From NCBI RefSeq assembly GCF_009834365.1, contig NZ_CP041349.1:124001-188000 (forward strand): a DNA stretch of 64,000 nt. Direction: 5' to 3'. This DNA is from Komagataeibacter xylinus (GTDB taxonomy: Bacteria; Pseudomonadota; Alphaproteobacteria; Acetobacterales; Acetobacteraceae). Position 1 is the stretch's first letter; each line of letters opens with the position of its first letter. Positions 17,517-33,834 of the stretch are shown here, piece after piece. The notes under the pieces were generated by a model, which made no database searches, was not told the origin of the DNA, and worked only from the letters and a program-made list of their open reading frames with translations. The translations under genes and the position numbers were made by a program.

Positions 17517-17936
17517 ATGTTTCTCATATTATCGTAAAAAAGGTCGTAATCCAGACAGATATCATATACCCGGTCTTCTTTCCACAACATGATGTTTTTG
17601 TTAAAGACACAATGTGAATAAAAGAGAATTGTGATATTATATCGTTCTCGTAATTTAATTTATTATTTTTAAAAAATATGCCTGAAGGTCATAAAAAGGT
17701 GTCTATTCTGCTTTGGCGATGGACGAAAACACATAGCGGAAAATAAATTATCGCGGCTGCCGCTTCTATGGAAAACAATTCAGACTTTTCACTTTGGCTG
17801 CCTGCACAAAATGATCGCCGGCATGCGTGGTAATACTGAGTACCATGCTGCCTGCTACAAGGATTGGCGGCCCTACCATTGCTCATAACGGCTGATCTCT
17901 TGCTAGCAGCGTCTCCCCCGTGACCTTATTTTCCGT
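17517..17936. other. AT-rich gap upstream of the OprB porin
   Basis: The part at 17525-17760 is strongly AT-rich and probably contains the promoter of the minus-strand porin. No gene is supported. Confidence 0.4.
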
Positions 17937-17966
17937 GTTCAGGTTCACGTCATGTCTGCGTGTTAC
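17937..17966 (+). promoter_or_regulatory. Tandem-repeat box plus -10 element, copy 1
   Basis: The 16-base box GTTCAGGTTCACGTCA (17937-17952) is followed after exactly 8 bases by TGTTAC (17961-17966), a plausible -10. The same arrangement recurs at 18733-18762 and, on the other strand, at 33757-33786. The box plus flank reads as two TCAGGTT-like half-sites 11 bases apart, the spacing used by OmpR-family response regulators. It lies 66 bases upstream of the secreted lipoprotein gene. Confidence 0.65.
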
Positions 17967-18031
17967 AAGAACAGCGAGCATCGGCATGATGGCATGGCCA
18001 GGGTCAGGTGCCAGGAGGCCGGACAAATATT

Positions 18032-18514
18032 ATGAGATCGATAGTGAATTACGGATTGGCAATCCTGATGATAGTCAGCATATCCGGCTGTGTGGCGCGC
18101 GCCGAAACAGAAACAGAAACAAACGGTATTTGCGAGACAGTGGAACAGGGTATCCGGCTGCATGTCGACGGCACGTATGGCGGATATCCCCATTCCGTCC
18201 TGCGTGATGCGGTGCTGGAGAGCGTAGCCTGTCCTTCGGGGGATGCAGAACTACGCGCTTTCCATACCATTGCGATACCGCCGCCCCATATGCGTATTGC
18301 CGTCATGCGCCCCATCGGGCAGGGCCAGCAGGGATCGCTGTCCATCATGCTGTTTTCACAAGGGCATTTCGTTATCGGCGAACGGATGTCCCTCTCTCCT
18401 TTCTCACGCACCCAGTCTCCTTTTTCGGTAAAGGCAGACATCAACCTTGCAACAGCACGCCTATGGGGCGATCTGGCGAACCGGATCGCACAGGGGAAGC
18501 GTGCCATTCCATAA
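18032..18514 (+). CDS. Secreted two-cysteine lipoprotein, unknown function (paralogue A)
   Basis: The 160-residue protein starts MRSIVNYGLAILMIVSISGC; the SISGC lipobox suggests anchoring in a membrane. The mature part has two cysteines (NGICETV and VACPSGD) likely to form a disulfide, and blocks shared with the gene at 33218-33694: YGGYPHSVLRDAVL, RPIGQGQQG, SQGHFVIGERMSLSP, QSPFSV and a final RAIP. I do not recognise a named family. The shared upstream box and the position of the paralogue at the head of a metal efflux operon suggest a periplasmic role in metal stress (inference). A longer N terminus from 18008 is possible. Confidence 0.7.
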   Translation: MRSIVNYGLAILMIVSISGCVARAETETETNGICETVEQGIRLHVDGTYGGYPHSVLRDAVLESVACPSGDAELRAFHTIAIPPPHMRIAVMRPIGQGQQGSLSIMLFSQGHFVIGERMSLSPFSRTQSPFSVKADINLATARLWGDLANRIAQGKRAIP

Positions 18515-18732
18515 TGGGGAAACACGCTCAGTCCATCACATTTGCGATCCGGTTTACCGAAAATGGCCGTAGCTTGCACATATTCTGCGATGTCATTAGG
18601 TCACGGGCGCCACACAGTTATCTGGATACAGGTTCCTTGCTCGCTGCCGGTGTCGTCGTGGGTTTACCATCTCCGTTCTTTTTTTACAGTCTGAACACCA
18701 ACTGGCCGCAGGTATCGGCAAGGCGGCCAATC

Positions 18733-18762
18733 GTTCAGGTTCGCGTCATGTTTGAGTGATAT
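18733..18762 (+). promoter_or_regulatory. Tandem-repeat box plus -10 element, copy 2
   Basis: GTTCAGGTTCGCGTCA (18733-18748) differs from copy 1 at one base and is followed after 8 bases by TGATAT (18757-18762). Transcription from it would begin only a few bases before the cytochrome b561 ATG at 18773, implying a nearly leaderless mRNA. Confidence 0.6.
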
Positions 18763-18772
18763 GATCGTTCGG

Positions 18773-19342
18773 ATGAAATACAAATCTGGCCTTTCCCCAG
18801 CACGTTATGACGCACCAACAATCATTTTCCACTGGGGATGCACGGCCATTATCATGTTGCAGTTCGCAACCGCGAATTTATGGGGCCTGTTCCGGAACCC
18901 GCTACACCATCAACTGGTGGTGACCCACCTGACGGCAGGCATGGTACTGAGCGTTCTGTTTCCCGCACGCCTGCTATGGCGACTAGGCTGGGGGCGGCAG
19001 ATCCGCGCCGCCGATCGCTGGCTTGATGCCATGCTGGCGCGCTACGTGGAATACAGCCTGTATGGGCTAGTCCTGCTGGAAATCCTCCTTGGGTATCTGT
19101 GGCGATGGGGCAATGGGCAGGCCATGAGTTTCCTGTCCATCCAGATCATGCCGCCCTTTGGCAGGTTTCCGACATCGACAGTCGGCATTCTGCACTGGCT
19201 GCACCAGTGGAATGGCTGGCTGATCATCGTGCTTGCCACGGGTCATGCGCTGGCCGCGTGTTTTCATTACTTCATTCTCCGGGACAATGTTTTTCAGAGA
19301 ATGCTGCTGACAGGGAATGTATCCGATGAATATGGAAAGTAA
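18773..19342 (+). CDS. Cytochrome b561-family membrane protein
   Basis: The 189-residue protein has four predicted helices with haem-ligand candidates: H in APTIIFHWGC, H in VVTHLTAGM, and two in the fourth helix region (ILHWLHQWNGW and ATGHALAACFHY). This is the CybB/b561 pattern for a di-haem membrane electron carrier, often taking electrons from quinol. I choose MKYKSGLSPARYD at 18773; in-frame ATG 18761 lies inside the predicted -10. The end overlaps the next gene by 17 bases, so the two are coupled. Role with a metal transporter: possibly reduction of a metal ion before transport (inference). Confidence 0.8.
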   Translation: MKYKSGLSPARYDAPTIIFHWGCTAIIMLQFATANLWGLFRNPLHHQLVVTHLTAGMVLSVLFPARLLWRLGWGRQIRAADRWLDAMLARYVEYSLYGLVLLEILLGYLWRWGNGQAMSFLSIQIMPPFGRFPTSTVGILHWLHQWNGWLIIVLATGHALAACFHYFILRDNVFQRMLLTGNVSDEYGK

Positions 19343-20039
19343 AATACCGCTGCGCCCCAAAGAAATCCACGCGACCTCCCGTCTGGGCTGGCTGCGGGCC
19401 GCTGTTCTGGGGGCGAATGATGGTATCCTGTCAACATCCAGCCTGATCATCGGCGTTGCCAGCGCCCATGCGACACAGGGGAGCATCCTGCTGGCTGGAA
19501 TTTCCAGTCTGGCTGCCGGGGCCATGTCCATGGCCGCGGGGGAATATGTGTCCGTTAGCTCGCAGGCGGATTCTGAGAAGGCTGACCTCGCCCGCGAAAA
19601 AAAGGAGCTTGGCAGTAGCTGGGACGCTGAAGTGAGCGAACTGGCCGGGATATACCGTCAGCGTGGCCTGGATGATATTCTGTCACGCAAGGTTGCCCTT
19701 CAGCTCATGAAGCATGATGCACTGGGGGCGCACGCCCGCGATGAACTCGGCATTTCGGACGCGACAGCGGCGCGTCCGGTACAGGCCGCCTTTGCATCGG
19801 CTAGCGCATTCTCTTCCGGTGCCATACTGCCCGTGCTGGCAGCCCTGCTGTCGCCAGCCAGCGTGGTCTCGTGGAGTGTATCCGCTGTATCCCTGATTGG
19901 TCTGGCGGTATTGGGAGTCGTGGGTGCGCGTGCAGGTGGGGCCTCACCATGGCGTCCGGCAATGCGGGTCATATTCTGGGGCATCGTAGCGATGGCCGTG
20001 ACGGCTGCCATCGGCCGGATATTCGGGGTACAGACATAA
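19326..20039 (+). CDS. VIT1/CCC1-family iron/manganese transporter
   Basis: This 237-residue membrane protein has the family N-terminal helix (LRAAVLGANDGILSTSSLI), the second helix motif LAAGAMSMAAGEYVSV, a charged cytoplasmic metal-binding helix region (REKKELGSSWDAEVSELAGIY ...) and three C-terminal helices. VIT1 relatives export Fe2+ or Mn2+ from the cytoplasm by proton antiport. It starts at MNMESKIPLRPKE inside the end of the b561 gene. Confidence 0.88.
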   Translation: MNMESKIPLRPKEIHATSRLGWLRAAVLGANDGILSTSSLIIGVASAHATQGSILLAGISSLAAGAMSMAAGEYVSVSSQADSEKADLAREKKELGSSWDAEVSELAGIYRQRGLDDILSRKVALQLMKHDALGAHARDELGISDATAARPVQAAFASASAFSSGAILPVLAALLSPASVVSWSVSAVSLIGLAVLGVVGARAGGASPWRPAMRVIFWGIVAMAVTAAIGRIFGVQT

Positions 20040-20470
20040 TGTATTAAATATTTCTGTATATTGAATGAATGGAATGATATCGTGAATGTACTTCTTGTAA
20101 TTGTGCTATCAAAGGCAGTCGTTTCAGTGCTCTGCATGCGACTTGCATTTCATTTATATCGTGACAAAAACAATATAATATTACATAGAAATAGGTCTGT
20201 GGGATTATGCTATCCCGGCAATAGATAGTGGGCATCAACTTCCTTGAAGACTTTCCCAAGGCGGCTATGGGAACCCCGCTTCTCCTGCGGGACGCGAATT
20301 ATATGCGCAGTGATCTCTATTCCGTTGTCGCTGCGATCATTAATGGCCGACTACGATGTCGGACCGAAAGGCATTTGCCTACACGCCATGGTCATCCTGC
20401 TTGCGTACCTATCTCATCCAGGATGGCCGAACCGGGCATGCATGCAAGATCATCCTATACCGCCAGGGAG
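20040..20470. other. 431-base gap between convergent genes, nothing recognised
   Basis: The VIT1-family gene and the response regulator converge here. AT-rich at 20040-20190, then GC-rich with short frames lacking family character. A terminator is expected but I see no convincing stem-loop. Confidence 0.35.
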
Positions 20471-21157
20471 TCACGCACTCATGACATAACCGCTACCCCT
20501 GACGGTGTGGATCAGAGGTTGGCCATCCTGCCCCAGTTTCTCCCGCAGACGACAAATATGCGTTTCGACGATGTTCGTACGAACCGGGAAATCCATATGC
20601 CAGACATCCTTCAGCAACATTTGCCGGGAAAGCACCGTGCCTGCATTCCTCATGAAATATTCCAGAAGTTTTAGTTCCTGAGGCTGCAGAAGAACCTTTT
20701 CGCCATTCCGTGTCACTGCAAGCGTCAGCAGATTGAGTTCAACGTCAGCCACATTCATTATTGTTGTATGCTGGAAGGAAGATGATCGACGAAGCAGTAC
20801 CTGCACGCGCGCGACCAACTCGCGTAATGCAAATGGCTTGATCATGTAATCATCCGCACCATGCCGCAGACCGGCGACACGGCTTGGTACGCCATCCATC
20901 GTCGTCAGGAACAGGACTGGCGTCATGATGGCATAAGAGCGCATGCGCATGAGAATTGTCAGTCCATCCAGACCAGGCAGCATGCGATCCAGAATGACGA
21001 TATCCCACGTTTGCGACAGGGCATGCTGCGATCCATCGGTCCCGTTAGCGACACAAACCACGTCAATTCCGCTTTCCTCCAGTCCCTGCCGCACGTAATC
21101 CGTAGTTGCGTGGTCATCTTCAACCAAAAGCAGGCGGGGGCGTGTTACCAGCGTCAT
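20471..21157 (-). CDS. OmpR-family response regulator
   Basis: The 228-residue regulator starts at MTLVTRPRLLLVEDD (ATG 21157). The receiver domain has acidic residues in LLVEDD, the phosphoacceptor D in IVILDRMLPGLDG, T in LFLTTMDG and K in DDYMIKPF. The C-terminal winged-helix DNA-binding domain is seen from LQPQELKLLEYF to HTVRGSGYVMS. It is divergent from the sensor kinase gene at 21611 across a 450-base gap. Metal- or copper-responsive CusR/CzcR types are the closest in style, but the signal is not readable. Confidence 0.88.
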   Translation of the reverse strand: MTLVTRPRLLLVEDDHATTDYVRQGLEESGIDVVCVANGTDGSQHALSQTWDIVILDRMLPGLDGLTILMRMRSYAIMTPVLFLTTMDGVPSRVAGLRHGADDYMIKPFALRELVARVQVLLRRSSSFQHTTIMNVADVELNLLTLAVTRNGEKVLLQPQELKLLEYFMRNAGTVLSRQMLLKDVWHMDFPVRTNIVETHICRLREKLGQDGQPLIHTVRGSGYVMSA

Positions 21158-21610
21158 GAAGCAGGCCAATCAACAAATTTAATGTCCCGCCCAGCGAGAC
21201 TGAGTTCTTGATCAGGTTATCAGAATCATTGTTACATGACACCATCCATGACGATGGATAGACAATTATTGGCATTTTTTAATGTATCGACCATGTCTCC
21301 AAATTGAATACAGAATAAATAATATCAATATTTCATGTGATACATATCATAAATGTGGATGTATATGTATTATATTTTATACGGTATTAAAACAAATACT
21401 ACGTACGCGCAGGCATATAAAAAATAAAAGACGGTAATTTCTCTCCGGACAGGACAAGGCAAAGGGGTTAACGCGGAAAGACCATTGGGGGTAAAGTCAG
21501 GCTACAGGGCTGGAGCCTATGCCAACCGGACCTGTCATGATCGGGGACGGGTGGATCTTGTCCGGTCATCCATATCCTGAGAGGATGTCGCTACATGATA
21601 AATATGTCCA
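21158..21610. promoter_or_regulatory. Divergent regulatory gap between response regulator and sensor kinase
   Basis: The gap is AT-rich in the middle (21270-21430). It contains a perfect inverted repeat ATCCAT-GACG-ATGGAT at 21244-21259 and two CATGAC copies 12 bases apart (21235 and 21247). On the minus strand these are GTCATG repeats, resembling the GTCATG half of the shared box upstream of 18032 and 18773. Autoregulation is possible. Confidence 0.4.
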
Positions 21611-23008
21611 ATGATGTCGTGGAATAGGATATCCCGACGCCGAAATGTGGAGACACGACGTATCATCGCCACGACGTCGTTTCGTATCGTCACGTTGTTC
21701 GCCGGTCTTTTTATATTGGGCGGCATGGTCATGACTATAACGTCAGGCCTTTACAGCCAGTCAACCATGCGCCAGCAGATCCGCCGGGAAGTGGAGAACG
21801 AGAGCCATGAGACATTTGCAGATGCTGGTGTTGCGGATGTCCGTCATCTCCTGCCAGTTGTGCAAGGACTGATCGAACATGAACCCGGTTTCCATTATTT
21901 GCTTCAGGACCCCGGACAGGTCATTGTCGCAGGCAACATGCTGCATCTGCGACCAGTGCCGGGCGAACGCTGGCTGGCATGGTCCCATCGCCTGCCGAAA
22001 GAAATCAACCAGGATATCGTTTATGGAATAGGTTATCGCCTTGATGACGGCGGCTATTACTTCGTGGGCATGGATGCCTCGCCCCTGACGCATCTCCAAC
22101 GCGCATTATGGACAACGATCCTGTGGGGCATTGCAGGATTTGGTCTGATAGGGGTAGCAGGCGGCCTTTTCCTGAGCAACCTGATCCTGAAATGGATCGA
22201 GACGATAAGCAGGACGGCACGGAGCATCATGCAGGGCGATATGTCTCGCCGCATCCCGCTACGTGGCACGGATGATGAGCTTGATCATCTCTCGGAGAGC
22301 CTCAATGCGATGCTCGACCAGAATGAATACCTGATTGCAAGTCTGAAACAGGTCTCCAATGACATCGCGCACGACATGCGCCGCCCGCTGGCGCGTATGC
22401 GCCAGAATCTTGAGCGCGCCATTGGGGCACATGGACCTTCCGATACCATGCATGAGCAGGTCGAGTGTGCAATCGAGGATCTGGATGCCGCATTGGAAAT
22501 ATTTTCCTCGCTGCTCAAGCTGGCGCAACTTGAGTCCGGGGCATGGAACAACGAAATGGAACCCCTCGATCCCGCACGACTTCTGGAATCAGTTCTAGAA
22601 CCGTATCGCTCCGTTATCGAAGACAATGGACAGCGCCTGGAAACCGAAATCATTCCCGCCTGCCCTACCGTCACCGGTCATCCAGTCCTTTTACGGCAGG
22701 CGTTCTCCAACCTGATCGAGAATGCCGTACGCCATACGCCCGACCAGACCACCATCACAGCGACCATAATGCTTTCGGACAAGACCATCACGATAGAAAT
22801 AGCCGATAATGGTCCAGGCATTCCGGACGAAGCCATGCTTCGGGTATTCGACCGCTTTGTCCGTCTTGATACAAGCCGTACGCATGACGGTAACGGGCTA
22901 GGGCTTACCATGGTGAAAGCCGTAGTACAACTGCACCGGGGCACGATCGTCTTGTCTCACAACAACCCTGGCGTAAGGTGTATCGTTAAATTACCCATAG
23001 AGCTCTAG
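21611..23008 (+). CDS. Two-component sensor histidine kinase
   Basis: The 465-residue protein has a first membrane helix (VTLFAGLFILGGMVMTI), a periplasmic sensor domain of about 120 residues, a second helix (ILWGIAGFGLIGVAGGLFL) and a HAMP segment (ARSIMQGDMSRRIPLRGT). The phosphoacceptor histidine is in VSNDIAHDMRRPLARM. The ATPase N box (NLIENAVRHTP), G1 (ADNGPGIPD) and G2 (HDGNGLGLTMVK) follow. It is the presumed partner of the divergent response regulator. The sensor domain is not recognised; it may sample a periplasmic metal or redox signal. Confidence 0.88.
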   Translation: MMSWNRISRRRNVETRRIIATTSFRIVTLFAGLFILGGMVMTITSGLYSQSTMRQQIRREVENESHETFADAGVADVRHLLPVVQGLIEHEPGFHYLLQDPGQVIVAGNMLHLRPVPGERWLAWSHRLPKEINQDIVYGIGYRLDDGGYYFVGMDASPLTHLQRALWTTILWGIAGFGLIGVAGGLFLSNLILKWIETISRTARSIMQGDMSRRIPLRGTDDELDHLSESLNAMLDQNEYLIASLKQVSNDIAHDMRRPLARMRQNLERAIGAHGPSDTMHEQVECAIEDLDAALEIFSSLLKLAQLESGAWNNEMEPLDPARLLESVLEPYRSVIEDNGQRLETEIIPACPTVTGHPVLLRQAFSNLIENAVRHTPDQTTITATIMLSDKTITIEIADNGPGIPDEAMLRVFDRFVRLDTSRTHDGNGLGLTMVKAVVQLHRGTIVLSHNNPGVRCIVKLPIEL

Positions 23009-23198
23009 CCTTCACGGCCTCATAGACAGCAGACCTCCTGGCTCGTTAGAGATGTGCAAATACGACTGAAGATTGGGGCATTGTAAGCTGACATCCCCGT
23101 GAGCTTTCGCCAGAAATAATGATGCCGCGCGCCCATGCGATGTGGCCGCCTGCAACGGTCCCGGCGAGCAGGGATCCAAATCGGGATTCATACAAACC

Positions 23199-24110
23199 AT
23201 GCTGCTCTGGTCCCTGATTCTGGTTGCATCAGCCGCGGCATTTGGCCTGAGCGCCGTGTCGGGAGGCGGTGCCGGGCTGCTCCTAATGCCCCTGCTGGGG
23301 CTGGTGCTGCCTGGCACTCAGGTGCCAGCCGCCCTGTCGATCGGGACAGTTGCCAGTTCGGCGACGCGCATCATCTCGTTCCGGCAGGCGATCCGGTGGG
23401 ACATCGTCCGGCATTTTGCGCCCACCGCGTTGCCCTTCGCCGCCCTGGGCGCATGGGCATTGAGCCGTATGGAGCCAGCCTATCTGTCGCTGCTTCTTGG
23501 CGTATTCCTGATGGGGAATCTTCCCCTTCTCTTTCGCAAGCCTGCACCCCAGGTCACTGTGAAAACGCCCCACGCTATCGAACTGCACGTGCTGGGTGCT
23601 ACCGCCGGCTTCATTTCCGGTTTTACCGGAGCGGTCGGCCTGGTGTTCAATGGGTTTTATTATCGACTTGGTCTGCGGAAGGAAGAAATCGTCGCAACCC
23701 GCGCGGCCAACGAAATCATGCTGCATGTGCTCAAGATCGCTCTCTACGCTGAGTTCGGCCTGTTGAATACCCGGGCCAGCATTGCGGGTATCGCTGTTGC
23801 TGCGGCGGCGGTTCTGTCATCAATAATCATGAAGTACCTGTTGCCGCACCTGCATGATCGCTTGTTTCACCATATTGGTCATGCCGCCATGGTCGTGGCG
23901 GGTGTCATGATGGTGATCTCCGCCAGTAGTCAGTTAGCGCGGCAGGCAAATGTCACGGTGCATTTCGCCCACGTAGCCCATGAAGCCGCAGCGTCCGTGT
24001 CATGGCGACAACACACTTTCGCGGTCGAATGGGAAAATGGTGATGAACGCGAGTTGAGCCCCCGAGTGCTTTCCAGACTGGCTTCATCCCCTATGATAAC
24101 AACCCATTGA
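23199..24110 (+). CDS. TauE/SafE-family sulfite/sulfonate-type permease
   Basis: The 303-residue protein is predicted to have about eight membrane helices in two repeats (GLSAVSGGGAGLLLMPLLGL and GATAGFISGFTGAVGLVFNG), the signature of the TauE/SafE (former DUF81) family. I start at MLLWSLILVASAAAFGLSAV (23199); the upstream extension lacks helices. After the last helix (AAMVVAGVMMVISA) there is a soluble tail of about 60 residues with several His and acidic residues (HFAHVAHEAA, FAVEWENGDEREL). The substrate cannot be told; sulfite, sulfoacetate and similar anions are known for relatives. Confidence 0.8.
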   Translation: MLLWSLILVASAAAFGLSAVSGGGAGLLLMPLLGLVLPGTQVPAALSIGTVASSATRIISFRQAIRWDIVRHFAPTALPFAALGAWALSRMEPAYLSLLLGVFLMGNLPLLFRKPAPQVTVKTPHAIELHVLGATAGFISGFTGAVGLVFNGFYYRLGLRKEEIVATRAANEIMLHVLKIALYAEFGLLNTRASIAGIAVAAAAVLSSIIMKYLLPHLHDRLFHHIGHAAMVVAGVMMVISASSQLARQANVTVHFAHVAHEAAASVSWRQHTFAVEWENGDERELSPRVLSRLASSPMITTH

Positions 24111-24154
24111 TTTAAGTGCGGGAATCTGATTCAGGCTCTGTGAGGAGACTGGAG

Positions 24155-24910
24155 ATGAGCGACCTGTTTTGGCTGCCGGACGAACAAATGGAGCGTCTGC
24201 GGCCCTTTTTCTTTAAGAGCCATGGTAGAGCCTGCGTTGATGACCGCCGAATGCTGAGCGGCATCATTTTTGTCAATCGGAACGGCTTGCGCTGGCGCGG
24301 TGCGCCCCGGGAATACGGTCCACATAAGACGCTCTAAAACCGTTGGAAGCGCTGGGGCGCCATGGGGATCTGCGCCCGGATGATGGACGGTCTGGCTGCC
24401 GGAAAGGCAGAGCCCCAGACCATCATGACTGATGCGACGTATCTCCAGGCACACCGCACGGCTTCGAGCGTGCGGCTAAAAAAGGGGATCCAGGTCGCTT
24501 GATCGGCCGCACCAGAGGGGCATAAACACGAAGCTGCATGCGATCACCGACCAGAGTGGGCGACCGCTGAGCTTTTTCATGACTGCGGGACAGATAAGCG
24601 ATTATACCGATGCCGCTGCCCTGCTGGATAGTCTTCCTGAAGCACAATGGATGCCGGGAGATCGCGGGGATGACGCCGACTGGTTCAGGGACGCCCTGGA
24701 AGCAAAAGGTATAAAAGCCCTGCATTTCAGGACAGAAATCTCGCGGAAAACCGGTCAGATACGACAAGAGAAAATATAAACGCCGCAATCGCATCGAGAT
24801 CATATTCGGAAGGCTCAAGGGCTGGCGGCGGGTTGCAACCCGCTACAACAGATGCCCGACCGTCTTCTTCTCAGCCATCTGTCTCACCGCAACCGTCATG
24901 TTCTGGCTAT
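24155..24910 (+). pseudogene. Degraded IS5-family (IS1031-like group) transposase
   Basis: The reading begins intact (MSDLFWLPDEQMERLRPFFF, then NRNGLRWRGAPREYGPHKT), then meets a stop at about 24335. It continues through further stops and frame changes: IMTDATYLQAHRTASS, SDYTDAAALLDSLPEAQW, IIFGRLKGWRRVATRYNRC. These match, in order, the whole length of an IS5/IS1031-type transposase. It cannot be expressed. The terminal repeats are not clear. Confidence 0.75.
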
Positions 24911-25153
24911 GTGTCCCGAGCCTAGAAGCCGTCCGTACTTTGGTAAAAATCTTTCAACACCGTAATAATAATAACGTCCGCTATCATTATATTACCCGCA
25001 ACAAAATGAACTTTGCACCTGAAGATTATATGAATCTTACTTCACACGAGATTCACTATGACTACAGTGACATTTTTTTCATCGACGGCTTCAAATGTTC
25101 TATCAACTGTTTGAGGGAGGCATCATGCCAGGATGGAAAAGTGAGCAAACACA

Positions 25154-25564
25154 TTATCCTGAACCACTAGTGAGATCCAGTAAGCTCATTCCATCGGAAA
25201 ATGCCATAAATGCATCAACGGCCTGTACTATGAGATGGCGAAACTGACAAGCATTGCCCAGTATACACTGGTTATTGCCAGATGGGTGACAGGCGCCAGG
25301 GGATTCTTTTTCAGTTTCCATGAGCCGCATAATATGACCGACGTTGATGTTTCTGGCAGACACAGCCAGACGGATGCCACCAGTACCTCCCCGGGTACCT
25401 TGTACGATCCCGGCATGACACAGGTGTTGTACAACTTTCACAAGATGATTGTGCGAAATGCCCTGCAACTCAGTGATGTTCCTGACGGTAACACGCGAAT
25501 CAGGATTACACGCCAAGTGGATCAACACACGGAAAGCGTAGTCGGTACGCAGCGAAAGAGGCAT
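25154..25564 (-). CDS. Rrf2-family regulator, NsrR-like
   Basis: I start the 136-residue protein at MPLSLRTDYAFRVLIHLACN (25564), which fits the family N terminus; the open frame extends upstream without homology. The winged HTH reads TVRNITELQGISHNHLVKVV. Three cysteines in ACHPSGNNQCILGNACQF are placed like the iron-sulfur ligands of NsrR/IscR-type regulators. NsrR senses nitric oxide and usually represses detoxification genes; no such target is adjacent. It lies 169 bases downstream of the sensor kinase gene and may be separately transcribed. Confidence 0.8.
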   Translation of the reverse strand: MPLSLRTDYAFRVLIHLACNPDSRVTVRNITELQGISHNHLVKVVQHLCHAGIVQGTRGGTGGIRLAVSARNINVGHIMRLMETEKESPGACHPSGNNQCILGNACQFRHLIVQAVDAFMAFSDGMSLLDLTSGSG

Positions 25565-25733
25565 CAACCCCACCACCCATAGGCACGTGTTGACTGATTT
25601 TCCCAAGCAGCCTCTCAGAATATTGCCAACGGGCTGCTGTACCAGGCAACCGTGACGCAGGGCATTCGTGACATAGGGGAGTAGAGTACGCAAAATGGAG
25701 TTGCCTGCGCGTCTGTTCCTCTACTGTCATGAA

Positions 25734-27070
25734 TTAGGTTACCTTCGAGTTTGGAAAGGTGACACACACACCAAATCCTCTGGCAGATCCTGTAAGTGGG
25801 GAACGTAAGCGCAGAGTAACGTCCATTTGGGTAGCGATATTACTGGCAATGGCGAGACCCAGGCCACTGCCATGATTACCGGTCCCGCCGCGCACGAATG
25901 GGCTAGTCAGCCGCTGGAATATGCCGGGTGGCAGCGCGGGGCAGTCATTGGTGATGTCGATTCCACCATCTGGTAGCACGGCCACCCGCACGGGCATATG
26001 GTGCCCTCCATGCAGCAGGGCGTTTTCAAGCAGGTTGCGCAACATGATGCCGGTCGCATCCATGTCACCATGTACGAATATGTGGTGAATCCCGTCTGGC
26101 GCGATGACAATGCCCTGCCCGTCACACGGATTATGCCCAAGATCATCGACAAGGACATGCACTACGGTCATCAGGTCGAAACGGTCGCGCCGGAAAGCGA
26201 CGCCGGACGAGGCGCGGGAAAACTGCAGCAGTTTTTCCACCGTGCGGCCCAGCCTGCGGGTCCGGTCGGCAATGAGCTCCACCCGCCGGCCCGTATCCGA
26301 AGCCGCCGGCATCAGTCGGCCCAGCATCTGTACCTGCGCCAGAAGGGCTCCAAGCGGGTTACGCAGTTCATGCGCAGCGCTTGCGGCAAAGGCGCGCTCG
26401 GTAGAGAGCGCTGCCTCCAACCGCGCCAACAGCGTATTGATCGAGCGCTGGATGGAGACTAGTTCGTCAGGGAGATCAAGGGGGGAATGGGCTGAAGGTT
26501 GCCGCTGCCACGTGCGCGCATCTCGTCATGCAGCAGGTCCAGCGGGCGCAGGGCGCGCCGCACGATCAGGCGCACCAGCCACCAGATCACCGGCATGAAA
26601 AGCAGCATGGGCACGACAGAGATCAGCATCGCGCGCCGGACGGCCTCGCGCCGGTGGAAGGTCGGTTCCCCCACAAGAACGCGGTATTTCTCCGCCACGG
26701 GTGACGCGACATAAACGCGAAAATGCGGAACATTAGCAAACCCGGTCCGCCACGCGCGCTCGAATGCGTCCTGCGGGGCATTCTGGGAACGCAACACGAC
26801 ATGCCCGGTCACATCCACGATCTGATAGGCCAGGGTGCGTGGCCCGACTTCCGGCAGCCAGGCGATGGACGACGCCGCACCCGGATCATGCAGTCGTGTC
26901 TCCACAGCCGTCTGCAGGCGCTCGGAAACTTCCTGAAGCGAGTTGTCCAGCCGTTCCGTTACCTCGTAGCGGGTAAATCCACCTACCGCGACACTGAGGA
27001 TCAGCAGCCCCAGTATCACGACCATGAGTACGCTGCTGATGATCCGGGTAGACAGGCTCCAGCTTTTCAT
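25734..27070 (-). pseudogene. Sensor histidine kinase of the efflux operon (CzcS-like), frameshifted
   Basis: The N-terminal frame (MKSWSLSTRIISSVLMVVIL ...) gives two membrane helices, a periplasmic domain and the start of HAMP (RRALRPLDLLHDEMRARGSG), then stops at 26459. The other frame continues DLPDELVSIQRSINTLLARL. It includes the phosphohistidine in ASAAHELRNPLGALLAQV, the N box (LLENALLHGG) and a G2 box (GTGNHGSGLGLAIASN). The frames meet at a run of six G (26480-26485, plus strand); one extra base gives PIPPLDLPDELVS. If the frameshift is real the operon has no functional kinase. Composite length is about 445 residues, normal for the family. Confidence 0.75.
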
Positions 27071-27738
27071 GCGCCGTCCCTTGCATCGAGGCAGTAGCCA
27101 CGGCCGCGTATGGTCCGGATGACCGTGTTGCCGACCTTGCGCCGCAGGCGGCTGATGAAAACCTCGACGGTATTGCTGTCCACGTCCCGGTCCAGCGCAT
27201 ACAGCGCGGTGTCAATCTGCTGGCGCGAATAGATCCGGCCCGGACTGCGCGACAGCAGTTCCATGATGCTCCATTCCCGCGCGGTCAGGTCCAGCCGCTC
27301 GCCATCACGCGATACAGACCGGTTCTCCCGGTCTATCGTAATCTCTCCCACGCGGCAGTGCGCGTGCCTGCGCGGCGATGCATACCGGCGGGCCACTGCC
27401 GCAATACGTGCCACGAGTTCATTCAGGTCATAGGGCTTGACGATATAATCATCTGCCCCTTCGGACAGACCCGCGATACGGTCACTGATCTGGTCCTCTG
27501 CCGTGGTGATGAGGATGGCGATGTCTGATGATGTCCGACGGACCTCACGCAACAGGTCGCGCCCACTTCCATCGGGCAGGCCAAGGTCGAGCAGCATGAA
27601 ATCATAATCCACCGTTGCCATGGCCGCGCGCGCGTCCTCCAGCGTCGTGAACCAGTCCACGGCATGCCCGTCCAGACCCACGCGCTCCTGCACCGCCACA
27701 CCCAGATCGTATTCATCCTCGACAATAAGGATACGCAT
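27067..27738 (-). CDS. OmpR-family response regulator of the efflux operon (CzcR-like)
   Basis: This 223-residue regulator has receiver motifs ILIVEDEYD, FMLLDLGLPDGSG (phosphoacceptor D), ILITTAED and DDYIVKPYDLNEL. Its winged-helix domain runs from LDLTAREWSIMELL to RTIRGRGYCLD. It overlaps czcA at one side and the kinase gene at the other by 1-4 bases. It is the best candidate to bind the tandem-repeat box at 33771-33786 that drives its own operon, and possibly the two other copies of that box. Confidence 0.88.
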   Translation of the reverse strand: MRILIVEDEYDLGVAVQERVGLDGHAVDWFTTLEDARAAMATVDYDFMLLDLGLPDGSGRDLLREVRRTSSDIAILITTAEDQISDRIAGLSEGADDYIVKPYDLNELVARIAAVARRYASPRRHAHCRVGEITIDRENRSVSRDGERLDLTAREWSIMELLSRSPGRIYSRQQIDTALYALDRDVDSNTVEVFISRLRRKVGNTVIRTIRGRGYCLDARDGA

Positions 27739-30700
27739 CAGTCCTGATCCTTTTCCCGCATGACCCGGGCATACAGTGATGGCAGCACAAGCAGGGTCAG
27801 CAACGTGGACGTGACCAGCCCGCCGATCACCACACTGGCCAGCGGGCGCTCGACTTCCGCGCCCGCACTTTCGGAAAACGCCATGGGAAAAAAGCCAAGG
27901 CTGGCGACAAGGGCTGTGGCCATGACGGGACGGAAGCGGGATTCCGCGGCCGCAAAGGCCGCCTGTGCCACGGCCATTCCCCGTGCCCGCAGGGCTGCGA
28001 TCTCACTGACCAGCACCACGCCATTCAGGATCGCCACGCCAAACAGCGCGATGAAGCCGATCCCCGCCGAAATGCTGAACGGCATGCCGCGCAGCGTCAG
28101 CGCCACGATGCCGCCGGTTGCCGCCACCGGCAGGTTGACGAACACCAGCAGCGCGGGCCGCACCGCGCCAAACGCCACCACCAGCAGCGCAAAGATCAGG
28201 CCAAGGGCAACGGGCAGCACGATCTCCAGCCGCCTTGTAGCTGATTGCAGGTTACGGAACTGCCCGTCCCACTGCATGTTATATCCTGCAGGCAGTTTTA
28301 CGTCCCGCGCCACACGGGCCTGTGCTTCGGCCACGAATGATGCAAGGTCACGCCCGCGCACGTTGGCCTGCACCACCATGCGCCGGCGTACCCGGTCGCG
28401 GCTTATGCGCGGCGGCCCATCGACTTCATGCACATGCGCCACCTGTGACAGCATCGCATTCCCCTGCCCGTCCATCCGCCGGACCTGCAGCGCGCCAATG
28501 GCGGCGGCGGATGTCGCCACGCGGGGGTCAAGGCGGACCTGCGTGCCGATGATGGCGTTATCCACGATCACCGGCCGGGCGCCGATATGCCCGCCTATGG
28601 CCTCCACCGTATCGAGAATGTCCTGCACCGCCACATTGCGGCTGGCAGCCTGCGTGCGGTCAATGTCGACCACGATCAGCGGCACGGTGCCGTCCCCCGC
28701 AGCCGCCACGTCCGCTGCCCCCTTCACGCCGGACATAGCCGCCACCACCCGGTCACCCAGCTCGGCCAGCATGGCCAGGTCATCGCCAAAGATCGAGACG
28801 GCAATCTGCGTGCGCACGCCAGAGAGCAGGTCATCCATGCGCATCTGCACCGGCTGGCTCCATGAATACAGCGCATCGGGCAGTTCGCGCCGCAGGGTAT
28901 CATCCATCGCGGCGACCAGCCCCGCCTGCGTGCGGGCGGTTTTCCATGTGGAGGGCGGGTTGAGGAAGATGAAGCTGTCGGTCTCGTTCACGCCCATCGG
29001 GTCGGTGGGAATGGCGGACGTGCCGGTATTGCTGACCACCGCGCGCACTTCAGGGAAGCTGCGCAGGATCTGCTCCTGCTTCGTGACCGAAGCCAGCACG
29101 GTATCAAGCGAGGCCGAGGGCAGCCGCGTGGTGGTGACCGCCAGCGCCCCTTCATCAAGCTGGGGAATGAACTCACCGCCCAGCCTCATCGCAAGCCCCG
29201 CTGAAAGGGCCAGCACCACCAGCGTACCGCCAAACAGGATGCGTGGATGGGTTTCCCCCATGTCACCATATGGGTATAGGGCCGGCGCAGGAAGGCAATC
29301 AGCCGCGTATCACCCGCAGGCCGCACGCCCCCCAGCGCAAGGGCGGCCAGAACGGGCACGCAGATGAAGCAGTACGCCAGCGACGCCAGCAGCGCCATGA
29401 TGACCGTCTGCGCCATGGGGCGGAACATGTGCCCCTCGATCCCCTGCAGGGTCAGGATCGGCAGATAGACCATGATGATGACCAGTATGGCAAACCCCAC
29501 CGGGCGCATGACCTGCTGCACGGAGGAGATGACCAGCGGAATGAATTCGGCGTCCGGCTCCTCCTCCCTGCGCGACAGCACATGTTCGATCACCACCAGC
29601 GAACCATCGACAATCATGCCGAAATCGATTGCGCCAAGGCTGAGCAGGTTGGCCGAGATACCGAACTGCCGCATGCCCGCCATCGCGCAGACAAGGGCAA
29701 CCGGAATGACCGAGGCAATGACAAGGGCGGCCTGCCAGCTCCCGATCACCACCACCAGCACCCCCACCACCAGCACGGCGCCCATGACCAGGTTGTCACG
29801 CACGGTGGCGATGGTCTGCCCGGTCAGGGTGGCGCGGGTGTAATAGGGTTCGATCGTGACGCCTGCGGGCAAAGCCTGCCGTATGCCCGGCAGCGCACGG
29901 TTGATGGCGGCAAGCGTTGCGTTGGAACTCGCCCCGCTTTCCATCATCACCACGCCGATCACGATCTCGCCCTGCCCGTCACGCGTTACCGCCCCCAGAC
30001 GGGTGCGCGCGCCCCTGGTGATGCGGCCAAGGTCACGCAGCCGCACGGCGGAGCCATCGGGGTTGGTCCGCACGGCGATATTGCCAAAATCCGCAAGGCT
30101 GCCCACCAGCCCGCGTCCGACCACGCTCTGCTGTTCGGCATGGTGCGTGATCCATCCGCCGCCGGATGCCGCGTTGCCGGCATCCACCGCACGATAGACC
30201 TCGCCTACCGAAAGGTTGCTGCCGATCAGCCGCGCGGGGTCCAGCGTCACCTCATAGGTTTCTTCCGCCCCGCCATTGACGTTGACATCCACCACACCGG
30301 GTACAAGACGCATCTGCGGCACCACGGTCCAGTTCATGATGCGGTTGAGTTCCATGAGCGAACGCCCCGCGCCACGGATCTGGAACTGCATGATTTCGCC
30401 CATGCCAGTGGCCAGCGGCCCCATGCTGACGGTAATGCCGGGCACGGATATGTTTGAACGCGCCTGCTGCATGCGCTCGTTCACGCGGGTGCGGTCCAGG
30501 TTGATGTCGGTATCATCGGCAAACTGCACATACACCACCGAGACGCCGCCGCGCGATACGGAACGCAGGTCAGTCATGCCGGGGATTCCGGTCATGCTGG
30601 TCTCGACGGGAAAGGTGATGAGTTTTTCCACTTCCTCCGTCGCAAGGCCCGGCGCCACGACCGAGACGAGAACCTGCCGGGGCGAAATATCCGGCACCGC

Positions 30701-30811
30701 TTCCACCGGCAGGCCCAGGACAGTCATGATGCCCGCGGCCAGCAGCAGGCCAAGACCGCCCAGCACCAGCATGCGCGCGCGGATCAGGGTGGCAAGGTAG
30801 GCATGTGCCAT
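27738..30811 (-). pseudogene. CzcA-like heavy-metal RND efflux pump, split by a frameshift
   Basis: Two frames give one 1024-residue pump. The first (start 30811, MAHAYLATLIRARMLVLGGL) contains the first helix, the porter domain and the metal-relay motif in helix 4, LGAIDFGMIVDGSLVVIEH, whose DFG...D...E pattern points to Zn/Co/Cd/Ni rather than the Cu/Ag CusA group. The second frame begins around GETHPRILFGGTLVVLAL and ends YARVMREKDQD. They meet at a run of five C (plus strand 29255-29259); one more base gives HMVTWGETHPRI. If real, the two halves might still be translated separately, as a GTG or ATG lies at the junction (ATG at 29261). With CzcC and CzcB it forms a tripartite envelope pump. 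Confidence 0.8.
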
Positions 30812-31962
30812 CAGTCTGCATCCATTCCGGCCAGACCGATGACGGAACGCAGGGCAAAACTACCATGACCCACCACCGGCTCGCCCTCTGTCAGGCCGGA
30901 ACGCAGCACTGCCTGCCGCCCGTCATCCAGTGCCACATCGACCACGACCGGCCGGTAGTCCGTCGCGTTCACCCGCACGAACACGACGCTGCGCCCGTCA
31001 ATCTGCTGGATGGCTTCGGACGGCACGACAAGACCCGCCACGCTGTCACGCTGAGCCAGTGCGGAATCCAGCACCATACCGGGCACCAGCGCGCCAGTGG
31101 GGTTTGACACACGGCTTATGACCCGGACCAGCCCGGTCAGGGAACTGGCCATCCCGTCCACCGTATCGATACGGGATGTAAACGGGCCGTCTGCCGTCCG
31201 CGTTACCTGCTGGCCGCCTGGTGCGATCCGCGCCGCCTGGTCCGGCGGGATGTCGGAGACAAGCCATATGCTGGACAGATCCGCGACGGTGGCCACATCC
31301 ATGCTCGGGTCCACATCACCCGCCACTGACGTACCGATCACCTGCACCATGCCGTTGACAGGGGAGATCAGGGTCGAGGTTTCGTCTTCCGCGCCCTGAC
31401 TGTCCTGCTCCGATGATGAATTGAACTCCTCGGCAAAACGGTGGCCCAACGTGTCCACATCCGCCTGGCGTGCACGCATGGTGGCATCCGCCTGTGCCAG
31501 CACGTCCTGCCTGCGGCGCAGTTCGGCCAATGATATGCTCTCGCCAGCCAGTGCCCTAGCCCGCTGCACCGCGCCTGCCGCATCGGTCCGGGCCGCAATG
31601 GCGGCAGCAAGCGCTGCACGCATCTGAACCGCCTGCAGGCGCGCAACATGCAGGGAATGATCCTGATAGCGCACCAGCGCCTGCCCCCGCTGCACGGATG
31701 CTCCGGGCTGTACCATTACTGCCAGCACCTTGCCACTGCCGGCGGGATGGATATGCACGACCCGCGTCGTATCGGGCATGACCCGGCTCATGACCGGCAG
31801 CATGGGTGCCACGCGACCCGGCGTGGCCGTGACGATGGTTACCCCTTCATTGGCAACCGCCGCCCCGTCCAGCTTCACGATCGGGGGCAGCGCCCCCTCC
31901 CCGGCATGGGCAGGCAGGGCGGGCAGGCCGAGAAGAAACAGGATGGAGGCAATCCGCTTCAT
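30811..31962 (-). CDS. CzcB-like periplasmic adaptor (membrane fusion protein)
   Basis: I start at MKRIASILFLLGLPALPAHA (ATG 31962), giving a signal peptide; the frame extends 16 codons upstream into the czcC end. The 383-residue protein shows a lipoyl half-motif (SGKVLAVMVQPGASVQRGQA), an alpha-helical hairpin rich in Ala/Arg/Asp, the second lipoyl half (ISPVNGMVQVIGTSVAGDV) and a beta-barrel domain (VPSEAIQQIDGRSVVFVRV). It bridges the RND pump and the outer membrane factor. It overlaps czcC by 4 bases. Confidence 0.85.
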   Translation of the reverse strand: MKRIASILFLLGLPALPAHAGEGALPPIVKLDGAAVANEGVTIVTATPGRVAPMLPVMSRVMPDTTRVVHIHPAGSGKVLAVMVQPGASVQRGQALVRYQDHSLHVARLQAVQMRAALAAAIAARTDAAGAVQRARALAGESISLAELRRRQDVLAQADATMRARQADVDTLGHRFAEEFNSSSEQDSQGAEDETSTLISPVNGMVQVIGTSVAGDVDPSMDVATVADLSSIWLVSDIPPDQAARIAPGGQQVTRTADGPFTSRIDTVDGMASSLTGLVRVISRVSNPTGALVPGMVLDSALAQRDSVAGLVVPSEAIQQIDGRSVVFVRVNATDYRPVVVDVALDDGRQAVLRSGLTEGEPVVGHGSFALRSVIGLAGMDAD

Positions 31963-33206
31963 GGCACAACACCTGTTGCAATCAGCATGCGGATGCTGGC
32001 GACATGCCATTCCACCTCAGCCCGGGCACTGGCCAGTCGGGTATTGGCGGCCGCCTGCCGGGCGGCAAGCGCCGTATCCACACCGGCTTCGCCTACCCGC
32101 CAGGCCCGTTCCTGCGCCTGGGCCCGCTTTTCCATATTCTCTGCGGCACTGCGGGTAGCCTGTCGTGCCGTGGTGGCCGCGATCAGGCGTTCACGCACGC
32201 GCATCATTTCCAGATGCACCATGCGCCGCGCCTGCGTTTCCTGGCTGGTGGCCGTGGCCAGGCGGTTGCGGGCTTCGGACATGATGGGCGTGTTACGGAC
32301 CTCGCTGGGCAGGGGGATGCTGAAATTCACGCCCACACGATCATCCCACGGGCTGCCGTACTGCTTTTCATGAATGGCGTCCACGCCGATTTCCGGGTTG
32401 GGCATGAACGAACGGCGCGCCAGTTTCATGTTCGCTTCGGCGGCTTCCACATTGCGGTGCGCGACCTTTATGCGGGGATCGTTGTCTTCCATGTCGCGCG
32501 GGCTGACAAAACGGGCCTGCGTCACGTCGCCGCCACCATAACGGCTCAGGTCAGGCACAACCGGGCGCCCCAGCAGCACCTCCAGGGCCGTAGTCGCGTT
32601 CTGCGCTTCCTCCTGTGCCAGGGCCAGTTCATCGCGCGCGTTCTCCATCGCCGCCTGCGCCACCTGCCCGTCGGTCGCGGCCAGTTCGCCCCCCTGCACC
32701 GCGCGCGTGGCGCTGGCGGCCATGCGCGCGGTCGCATCATACAGGGTGCGGGCCACATCCACCCGGCTGCGGGCGATCAGGGCGGCGGCGCCTGCATCAA
32801 GCACCCGGATGGACAGTGCCATGTGTTCGACATTGAGCTGTTCATCAATCGACGCGGCTTCCGCGCTGGCGACCTGTTTCGTGGCGCTGCCCTGCCCCGG
32901 CAGCCACAGCGGCACCGACACGCCGCCCTGATAGGTTGTATAGCCTTCGTTACTGCCCAGCATGTGGTCATCCATGTATTCACCCGACAGGGTCGGGCCG
33001 CCGGCAAACCATGACCCGGCAGCGCTGGCGCGGGCGCGGGCGGAATGATGGCCGACCTGAAGTTCGGTGCGGACGGGATCGATCGCCCAGGCCATGCCGA
33101 CGGCTTCATGGAAGGATGGGCCAGGGCGGGCGTCCTGGGCCAGGGCCATCCATGGCAGGGCACAGGCCATGGCGATCGACACGATGGGGGGGATGGCGCG
33201 GTTCAT
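31959..33206 (-). CDS. CzcC-like outer membrane efflux protein (TolC family)
   Basis: This 415-residue protein has a signal peptide (MNRAIPPIVSIAMACALPWM ... ALAQ) and two repeated alpha-helical domains of the outer-membrane-factor family (AVQGGELAATDGQVAQAAME and related heptad-rich segments; VGVNFSIPLPSE). It forms the outer-membrane channel of the Czc-type pump. It starts 11 bases after the secreted two-cysteine gene and overlaps czcB by 4 bases. Confidence 0.85.
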   Translation of the reverse strand: MNRAIPPIVSIAMACALPWMALAQDARPGPSFHEAVGMAWAIDPVRTELQVGHHSARARASAAGSWFAGGPTLSGEYMDDHMLGSNEGYTTYQGGVSVPLWLPGQGSATKQVASAEAASIDEQLNVEHMALSIRVLDAGAAALIARSRVDVARTLYDATARMAASATRAVQGGELAATDGQVAQAAMENARDELALAQEEAQNATTALEVLLGRPVVPDLSRYGGGDVTQARFVSPRDMEDNDPRIKVAHRNVEAAEANMKLARRSFMPNPEIGVDAIHEKQYGSPWDDRVGVNFSIPLPSEVRNTPIMSEARNRLATATSQETQARRMVHLEMMRVRERLIAATTARQATRSAAENMEKRAQAQERAWRVGEAGVDTALAARQAAANTRLASARAEVEWHVASIRMLIATGVVP

Positions 33207-33217
33207 GCTTCAGGCCA

Positions 33218-33694
33218 TCATGGAATGGCGCGACCACCATGGCTGATCCGTTCGGCCAAATCGCTCCACAGTCGCGCCATCAGCAGATTGATCTCGGACG
33301 TGACCGAAAACGGGGACTGCGAACGCGCCAGGGGCGAAAGGGACATGCGTTCCCCGATGACAAAATGCCCCTGCGAGAACAGCCGGGCCGAAATCGCCCC
33401 CTGCTGCCCCTGCCCCATGGGCCTCGTAACGGAAATACGCAGGTGTGGCGGCGGGTCGGCAATGAGACCGAAGACATGCCGTTCAGCTTCATCAGAGGGG
33501 CACGCCACGCCCTGCAGCACGGCGTCACGCAGTACGGAATGGGGATAACCCCCATACATGCCATCTACATGCAAACGTATACCATGCCGGACCGTCATAC
33601 ATATGCCCTCTGTCCCATCATCCGCCCAAGCGGCCGACACCCCTAGGAAGAAAATACAGGCTGCATACAGACTATCCCGCACTATCCTTTGCAT
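33218..33694 (-). CDS. Secreted two-cysteine protein, unknown function (paralogue B)
   Basis: The 158-residue protein starts MQRIVRDSLYAACIFFLGVS and has a signal peptide ending at about AAWA-D, without the lipobox of its paralogue at 18032-18514. The mature part shares about half its residues with that paralogue, including GIC, YGGYPHSVLRDAVL, GVACPSDE, GQGQQGAIS, SQGHFVIGERMSLSP, QSPFSV and the end RAIP. It is the first gene of the metal-efflux operon and sits 63 bases downstream of the shared promoter box. I suggest, without proof, a periplasmic metal-binding or sensing role coupled to the pump. A longer N terminus from 33721 is possible. Confidence 0.7.
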   Translation of the reverse strand: MQRIVRDSLYAACIFFLGVSAAWADDGTEGICMTVRHGIRLHVDGMYGGYPHSVLRDAVLQGVACPSDEAERHVFGLIADPPPHLRISVTRPMGQGQQGAISARLFSQGHFVIGERMSLSPLARSQSPFSVTSEINLLMARLWSDLAERISHGGRAIP

Positions 33695-33756
33695 AATAAG
33701 CGTCTGTTCCCCGGCGTACATAAAGTTCCTGCCATCACGACGATGACTTTCTGACG

Positions 33757-33786
33757 GTAACAGAGAAACCTGACGTGAACCTGAAC
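33757..33786 (-). promoter_or_regulatory. Tandem-repeat box plus -10 element, copy 3 (efflux operon)
   Basis: On the minus strand GTTCAGGTTCACGTCA (33786-33771) is followed after 8 bases by TGTTAC (33762-33757), identical in box, spacing and -10 to copy 1. Here the repeat is clearest: TCAGGTTCACGTCAGGTT contains two TCAGGTT units 11 bases apart. It is placed to drive the whole operon from 33694 down to 25734. Confidence 0.7.
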
Positions 33787-33816
33787 ATCCGGTCTACAAA
33801 AGAGAATTTATATTAT

Positions 33817-33834
33817 GAAAATGATTATCATTTC
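33817..33834. promoter_or_regulatory. Fur-box-like palindrome
   Basis: AAATGAT-T-ATCATTT at 33819-33833 is a perfect 15-base palindrome inside GAAAATGATTATCATTTC, close to the classical Fur operator. It lies just upstream of the efflux promoter and 40 bases from an IS remnant, so its original target may be the operon or a gene removed by the IS. Confidence 0.5.

Follow-up and report, generated by a model that had tools for sequence, protein, structure and literature searches.

We analysed a 64,000-nucleotide stretch of Komagataeibacter xylinus DNA (G000:C2:124001-188000, here called the window), which lies on a 233,861-base contig of a 3.98-megabase (Mb) genome, and followed up a short promoter box that occurs in it three times. 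An initial annotation had tied two paralogous secreted-protein genes, a metal-efflux operon of the resistance-nodulation-division (RND) type and a cytochrome b561-VIT1 unit to one control circuit through this box. Our analysis supports one predicted OmpR-family operator for these targets, since it occurs at six sites in the genome and all six stand before these units. The boxes are likely operators of a single two-component system, made up of the response regulator encoded at 27067-27738 (regulator 2) and the sensor kinase encoded in the same operon (kinase 2), and the genes behind them are very probably switched on together. The specificity of the box, its conservation, the fixed geometry of its promoters and its co-inheritance with regulator 2 were computed directly.

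The 16-base core of the box was confirmed at the reported places, with exact copies at 17937 (+) and 33771-33786 (-) and a copy with one change at 18733 (+). A -10-like hexamer indeed begins 8 bases past the core in all three (TGTTAC, TGATAT and TGTTAC for boxes 1 to 3). With up to 3 mismatches the window contains 3 matches to the 16-mer, compared to 0.31 expected and a maximum of 2 in 100 shuffles. A fuller description of the box comprises 20 bases, GTTCAGGTTCRCGTCAKGTT, from which copy 1 departs at the last base (Table 1). The OmpR-type direct repeat that had been noticed in copy 3 is present as TCAGGTT-CACG-TCAGGTT, with a period of 11 base pairs (bp), but it is a property of all three copies and not of copy 3 alone; copies 1 and 2 carry a weaker form (TCAGGTT-N4-TCATGTC and TCAGGTT-N4-TCATGTT, respectively). 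A weight matrix built from 25 chosen sites of the genus, the window's three included, scored the boxes at 39.6-43.6 and the next best position in the window at 8.8.

Promoter geometry was examined at 31 sites picked because they resemble the box, a choice in which the -10 element and the flanks played no part. The box and the -10 element were near-invariant across these sites, with A at +28 in 31/31, T at +27 in 29/31 and G at +25 in 26/31, and the flanks were low in information. A -35 element with a 17-bp spacer would land on TTCAGG, which is half-site 1. Box 2 starts 40 bases before the conserved ATG at 18773, and the b561 or VIT start codons lie 39-40 bases past the box start (copies counted by eye), which predicts a nearly leaderless mRNA for this unit.

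The initial annotation had named many unrelated occurrences in the genome as a result that would speak against the circuit, and such occurrences were not found. A relaxed pattern (TCANSTT-N4-TCANSTT plus a short -10 pattern, with at most 1 mismatch) matched the whole 3.98-Mb genome in exactly six places, and the reversed pattern, used as the control, in none. The 20-mer with at most 3 mismatches matched in 7 places, of which six are good sites (three in the window, C3:136228, C3:137077 and C1:3257368 on the minus strand) and the seventh carries 3 mismatches. Requiring the -10 element as well, again with at most 3 mismatches, left 5 places, and the C1 copy dropped out. Each of the six sites, which are spread over three contigs, is followed by one of the same two unit types. 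Contig C3 carries a further secreted-protein gene (89%) and b561-VIT1 with its box (87%, 95%); neither regulator 2 nor the second regulator of the window (regulator 1) was found within the 19 kilobases (kb) read around these copies. Contig C1, the largest and presumably the chromosome, carries an intact operon for the secreted protein, TolC, adaptor, pump, regulator and kinase behind the same box. With the same operator on the window contig, C3 and C1, one circuit would span three replicons.

A motif scan of related genomes, as had been proposed, showed that the box is kept across the genus and beyond. Among 60 genomes, 19 of the genus (our own included) and 41 outside it, a box match was present in 21, namely 19/19 and 2/41. 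A homologue of regulator 2 with at least 74% identity was present in 19/19 genus genomes, and the best homologue in the 41 outside genomes, among the matches listed, had 50%. Targets of the 68 boxes in the 19 genus genomes were sought in the next 880 bases: 47 boxes precede a secreted-protein gene and/or a TolC gene, 19 precede b561-VIT1, and 2 precede neither. Within the group of 47, some secreted-protein copies are decayed and some operons are reduced to remnants. At four loci (L081, L082, L085 and L108) the secreted-protein gene is lost or decayed and the box still precedes TolC. At L114 the box is followed by a secreted-protein gene, a CusA remnant and then CobW, alcohol-dehydrogenase and AcrB-type genes.

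The family survey covered 299 genomes, searched for the box-plus--10 pattern and for regulator-2 homologues at an expectation value (E) of at most 1e-75, with 9 candidates scored per genome. The pattern matched in 15/299 genomes, and 27/299 hold such a homologue. The box was present in 12 of the 13 genomes whose homologue reaches 74% identity or more and in 3 of the 286 others (Fisher p ~7e-18, with no correction for kinship and with the 74% threshold set after the data were seen). In the thirteenth genome (G280), the contig ends inside the secreted-protein gene. Regulator homologues of 58-67% identity define 15 distant loci (L149-L163), several of them near copies of each other. When the genus-trained matrix was run on both strands of 9.7-13 kb at each of these, its top site preceded the operon in 14/15 and its best score exceeded all 40 first-order shuffles in 14/15. 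Distant variants of the box, for example GTTCAGCTTCCAGTCAGGTT, GTTCAGGGTCCTGTCAGCTT and GTTCAGGTTGCTGTCAGCTT, retain both the 11-bp period of the half-sites and the spacing to a -10-like element, and they fit what would be expected of an operator that slowly co-evolves with its regulator. Moreover, a plasmid of Acetobacter pasteurianus encodes the secreted protein, TolC, adaptor, CusA, regulator, kinase and VIT in one row; one box precedes the gene of the secreted protein and another precedes VIT.

The direct repeat, with its period of about 11 bp, appears to be co-inherited with regulator 2, a protein that scores as an OmpR/PhoB-family member (PF00072, 78.4 bits for a cut-off of 30.2; PF00486, 71.8 bits for a cut-off of 26.2). 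The initial annotation had left two regulators open as readers of the box. That at 27067-27738 is now favoured because the box is co-inherited with it and is kept in genomes that lack the other, regulator 1 (20471-21169). Regulator 1 was found in 12/19 genus genomes and was not found in 7/19, all seven with boxes, where a contig gap in G015 may hide one. Regulator 1 probably does not govern the boxes. The best NCBIfam matches of regulator 2 are PmrA and QseB, neither reaching its equivalog cut-off (183.6 of 330 and 182.3 of 345 bits, respectively), and its nearest solved structure is BasR/PmrA (E 3e-38). The kinase of an intact relative (L091) has PmrB and QseC as its best NCBIfam matches. In sequence, the pair is closer to PmrA/QseB and PmrB/QseC than to CusR/CzcR.

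Several regulators may act on the same box, namely regulator 2 together with its paralogue on C1 (77% identical) and perhaps regulator 1. This arrangement would refine control by regulator 2 and is compatible with it, and we consider it a serious possibility that falls somewhat short of an even chance. The C1 operon has its own regulator behind the same box, and neither kind of regulator was found within the 19 kb read around the C3 copies, as would suit shared use of the operator. The objections to regulator 1 acting alone, given below, apply equally to its part as a co-binder.

Several observations weigh against control of all the boxes by regulator 2. The -10 element of the C1 copy is poor (CCCTAA). 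Two of the 68 genus boxes are without a target of the expected kind; one of these (G012:C1:2283390, with 2 mismatches) may be a chance match, and the other is in L089 (G011:C289). Box matches occur in three family genomes (G075, G221 and G090) without a regulator of at least 74% identity. In L153 the best site scores 10.8, compared to 14.9 for the best of 40 shuffles. In L151, VIT1 and a transposase gene flank the top site, which is aimed at the transposase, away from VIT1, and the second-best site precedes TolC; the transposase is perhaps an insertion into an old promoter region. Non-independence is a further limit, since close relatives supply many of the 68 genus sites and of the 15 distant ones. 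In Novacetimonas hansenii SI1, the czcCBA pump genes fall significantly on glycerol, whereas the repression of czcS and czcR is only mild, which is an imperfect fit to autoregulation of a single operon (PMC12405394). Finally, the window's own kinase and pump genes are frameshifted in this assembly.

The frameshifts qualify one earlier claim: a Czc-type efflux operon with its own regulator does lie behind box 3, but its pump and kinase genes are split. The kinase gene falls into 25734-26429 and 26459-27070, where a G run near 26479-26485 lacks one base in the window, and the RND gene into 27738-29261 and 29186-30811, where a C run near 29254-29259 likewise lacks one. All 7 aligned relatives are one base longer at both homopolymer runs, and the two genes are whole in three annotated plasmid relatives and in the C1 operon. 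Because two homopolymer shortenings fall in one operon, the frameshifts are probably assembly errors rather than decay, with a real defect also possible.

Two sequence arrangements seen in the surveys are recorded here in their own right. Downstream of the L089 box lie alcohol-dehydrogenase and AcrB-type genes. At L151:8428-9317 a transposase gene is flanked by two box-like sites, of which the outer adjoins VIT1.

The pump was classified on an intact close relative (L120:5266-8340), because the window's frame is split; it scores 895.6 bits with TIGR00914, above the cut-off of 701.45. It is nearer to the zinc pump ZneA (579.5 bits), its nearest solved relative, than to CusA (449.9 bits), and it contains a DFG-x3-D motif, which we take to be a mark of divalent-metal transport. 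VIT1 (PF01988, 215 bits for a cut-off of 28.1) and b561 (PF01292, 62.3 bits for a cut-off of 30.1) are members of their Pfam families, and b561 stays below the NCBIfam b561 equivalog (30.9 of 170). The earlier entry "cytochrome b561-VIT1" holds in that box 2 precedes both, but they are two overlapping genes and not one. No Pfam family matches the secreted protein. Its 40 relatives at E of at most 0.001 are, where an organism is named, from Komagataeibacter, Novacetimonas, Gluconacetobacter and Acetobacter; many are nameless. A weak match (33%) precedes TolC in L158. C41 and C74 were invariant in the first alignment of the secreted protein, and its structure model is confident (mean pLDDT, the predicted local distance difference test, 84.4) yet uninformative on role. 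Several operons keep their box although this gene has been lost or has decayed, so the protein is an accessory and not the sole reason for the box.

VIT1 proteins move iron and manganese, and b561 could reduce metal. Iron, as Fe(II), or manganese could thus be the main signal of the regulon in place of zinc, cobalt or cadmium, and Fur would then act on the operon promoter; we regard this alternative as unlikely. A Fur-like box adjoins box 3 directly upstream. Scored by likeness to a Fur consensus, the element has 14 genome matches at up to 2 mismatches (some overlapping) and none for the reversed control. Among 67 genus-locus boxes (L075 left out, many loci being near copies), an element with up to 3 mismatches lies within 120 bases upstream of 26/26 boxes ending in GGTT, the type of box 3, and of 1/41 others. 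The operon promoter may in consequence have a second input, and the promoters of b561-VIT1 and of secreted paralogue A seem to be without it. Of 10 open reading frames tested beside other Fur-like matches, two encode TonB receptor plugs, one a PepSY_TM membrane protein and one RcnB, and the rest have other families or none. Against an iron or manganese signal stands the closeness of the pump to ZneA. Moreover, in K. xylinus E25 grown on ethanol the main text reports TonB receptors up and the cus cluster down, opposite to what shared Fur repression would give (PMC6667682).

More doubtful still is a dedicated defence of acid-living bacteria against excess iron or manganese, in which b561 would reduce the metal, VIT1 would carry it across the inner membrane and the ZneA-like RND pump would export it. 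A single PmrA-like system would control all of this on three replicons, and the secreted protein would be a new kind of periplasmic pump helper.

Very unlikely is control of the boxes by regulator 1, the copR/czcR-like protein that sits between the two loci and adjoins b561-VIT1. It comes nearer to TIGR01387 (cztR_silR_copR) than regulator 2 does (217.6 compared to 166 bits), with both below the cut-off of 279.2. However, it is missing from the seven box-keeping genus genomes already mentioned (one possibly through an assembly gap), and no regulator 1 was found in the 18.9 kb read around the two-box operon of A. pasteurianus. Among the eight top-scoring window positions, only one falls between the genes of regulator 1 and kinase 1, and its score of 3.1 is far below those of the three boxes. 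In addition, the segment SNTVEVFISRLRRK, well conserved in 12 aligned regulator-2 proteins (the window's included), differs in the recognition region of regulator 1. Hardly credible is an origin of the box likeness in a recent duplication of the secreted paralogues with their promoters and no shared control: duplication can carry promoters along, but the b561 promoter has no evident likeness to the others beyond the box and the -10 element, the flanks of the 31 sites are low in information around a near-invariant box and -10, and the box also stands before TolC in distant loci and before VIT in Acetobacter.

For control by regulator 2, we infer binding, activation rather than repression, the inducer metal and a role for the secreted protein, and we propose the following course of events. 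A rise in periplasmic divalent metal would lead kinase 2 to phosphorylate regulator 2. Two regulator molecules would then bind head-to-tail on TCAGGTT-N4-TCANGTT, at the -35 position 17 bp before the -10 element, and, judging from this geometry and from PmrA, would recruit RNA polymerase. The operon for the secreted protein, TolC, adaptor, RND pump, regulator and kinase would be turned on, amounting to positive autoregulation. The second secreted paralogue would be turned on as well, and so would b561-VIT1, as a second metal exporter in the inner membrane.

The studied region (17900-33800) has its closest plasmid relatives all in Komagataeibacter: K. nataicola pKNA07 (99.3% identity), K. xylinus E25 plasmid CP004365 (99.0% identity, 100% coverage), K. 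medellinensis (98.0%) and K. europaeus (97.5%). The K. nataicola relative of secreted paralogue A is annotated from an ATG matching about 18032. For b561, conservation makes 18773 the likely start, and annotation of the K. nataicola relative places the start 12 bases farther upstream. The number of in-frame GAAACA units at 18103-18121, in the gene of secreted paralogue A, differs between strains, as does that of a 9-base in-frame repeat unit near the TolC start (~33182-33196). An inverted repeat in the operon leader may form a conserved hairpin at the 5' end of the secreted-protein mRNA, a side feature only. In the window leader and 13 orthologous or paralogous leaders, the 14 picked by eye from 27, 98.0% of the cells are paired, and two-sided changes occur in 4/7 pairs (0/500 shuffles as high), one cell each and three of the four from one sequence (L069). 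The same hairpin was not seen in other leaders, such as that of secreted paralogue A in the window, and single-sequence folding gave few low z-scores.

Table 1. Features of the studied region, in window coordinates
Feature	Coordinates	Strand	Remark
Box 1 (GTTCAGGTTCACGTCATGTC)	17937..17956	+	Predicted promoter of secreted paralogue A
-10-like TGTTAC	17961..17966	+	24 bases past box 1 start
Small secreted/lipoprotein-like protein A	18008..18514	+	Open reading frame from GTG; no Pfam family
Box 2 (GTTCAGGTTCGCGTCATGTT)	18733..18752	+	Predicted promoter of b561-VIT1
Cytochrome b561 (PF01292)	18752..19342	+	Open reading frame from TTG; likely start 18773
-10-like TGATAT	18757..18762	+	Box 2 promoter
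VIT1-family metal transporter (PF01988)	19317..20039	+	
Response regulator 1, cztR/silR/copR-like	20471..21169	-	Below that family's cut-off
Sensor kinase 1	21611..23008	+	Divergent neighbour of regulator 1
Sensor kinase 2, PmrB/QseC-like	25734..27070	-	Judged on intact relative L091; split by frameshift
Response regulator 2, OmpR family, PmrA/QseB-like	27067..27738	-	Proposed regulator of all boxes
CusA/CzcA-family RND pump	27738..30811	-	Split by frameshift
Periplasmic adaptor, CusB-like	30811..32010	-	
TolC-family outer-membrane channel (PF02321)	31959..33206	-	
Small secreted protein B	33218..33721	-	First gene of RND operon
Leader inverted repeat GTCATCGTCGTGATGGC	33731..33747	-	Possible hairpin just past predicted transcription start
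-10-like TGTTAC	33757..33762	-	Box 3 promoter
Box 3 (GTTCAGGTTCACGTCAGGTT)	33767..33786	-	Predicted promoter of the secreted protein B-TolC-adaptor-pump-regulator-kinase operon
Fur-like box AATGATAATCATTTTCA	33816..33832	-	Directly upstream of box 3; missed by the initial annotation

For industrial cellulose and vinegar bacteria, these results predict a regulon and name its operator, its likely regulator and its targets. They also link metal efflux to an uncharacterised secreted family whose named members all belong to acetic acid bacteria. They suggest PmrA/QseB-like control of metal RND pumps. An operator common to several replicons also bears on the spread of metal tolerance among these bacteria.

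Metal RND pumps are controlled by the CzcRS, CusRS and CopRS systems. Regulator 2 and kinase 2 are likewise encoded in an RND metal-efflux operon, for which autoregulation is proposed, and differ from these systems in that regulator 2 falls below the cztR_silR_copR cut-off. The pump belongs with ZneA and CzcA by the score of its intact relative, and its substrate is a prediction. In K. xylinus E25, RNA sequencing showed a cusCBASR cluster, which may be the counterpart of the present operon or another copy, falling as a whole with ethanol (PMC6667682). As here, the E25 and SI1 papers name the pump genes together with a regulator and a kinase and report a joint change in expression; the parts consulted describe no operator, and neither b561-VIT1 nor the secreted family as co-regulated (PMC6667682, PMC12405394). 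The words nodulin, cytochrome b561 and vacuolar are absent from the E25 main text (PMC6667682). No account of this operator or regulon was among the results listed in searches of the open-access literature. We likened regulator 2 to PmrA and QseB as a working analogy, and it appears to lie outside either equivalog. In the relevant passages of the published work, the two domains of PmrA bind head-to-tail with the -35 element at half-site 1 (PMC4660055), and its half-sites, CTTAAT and CCTAAG, are 5 bp apart in PmrA box 1 (PMC3973317). The predicted operator shares with that of PmrA/BasR, so described, the head-to-tail layout and the placing of half-site 1 at -35; it differs in its half-sites, which are TCANGTT and not CTTAAT/CCTAAG, and in its targets, which here are metal exporters.

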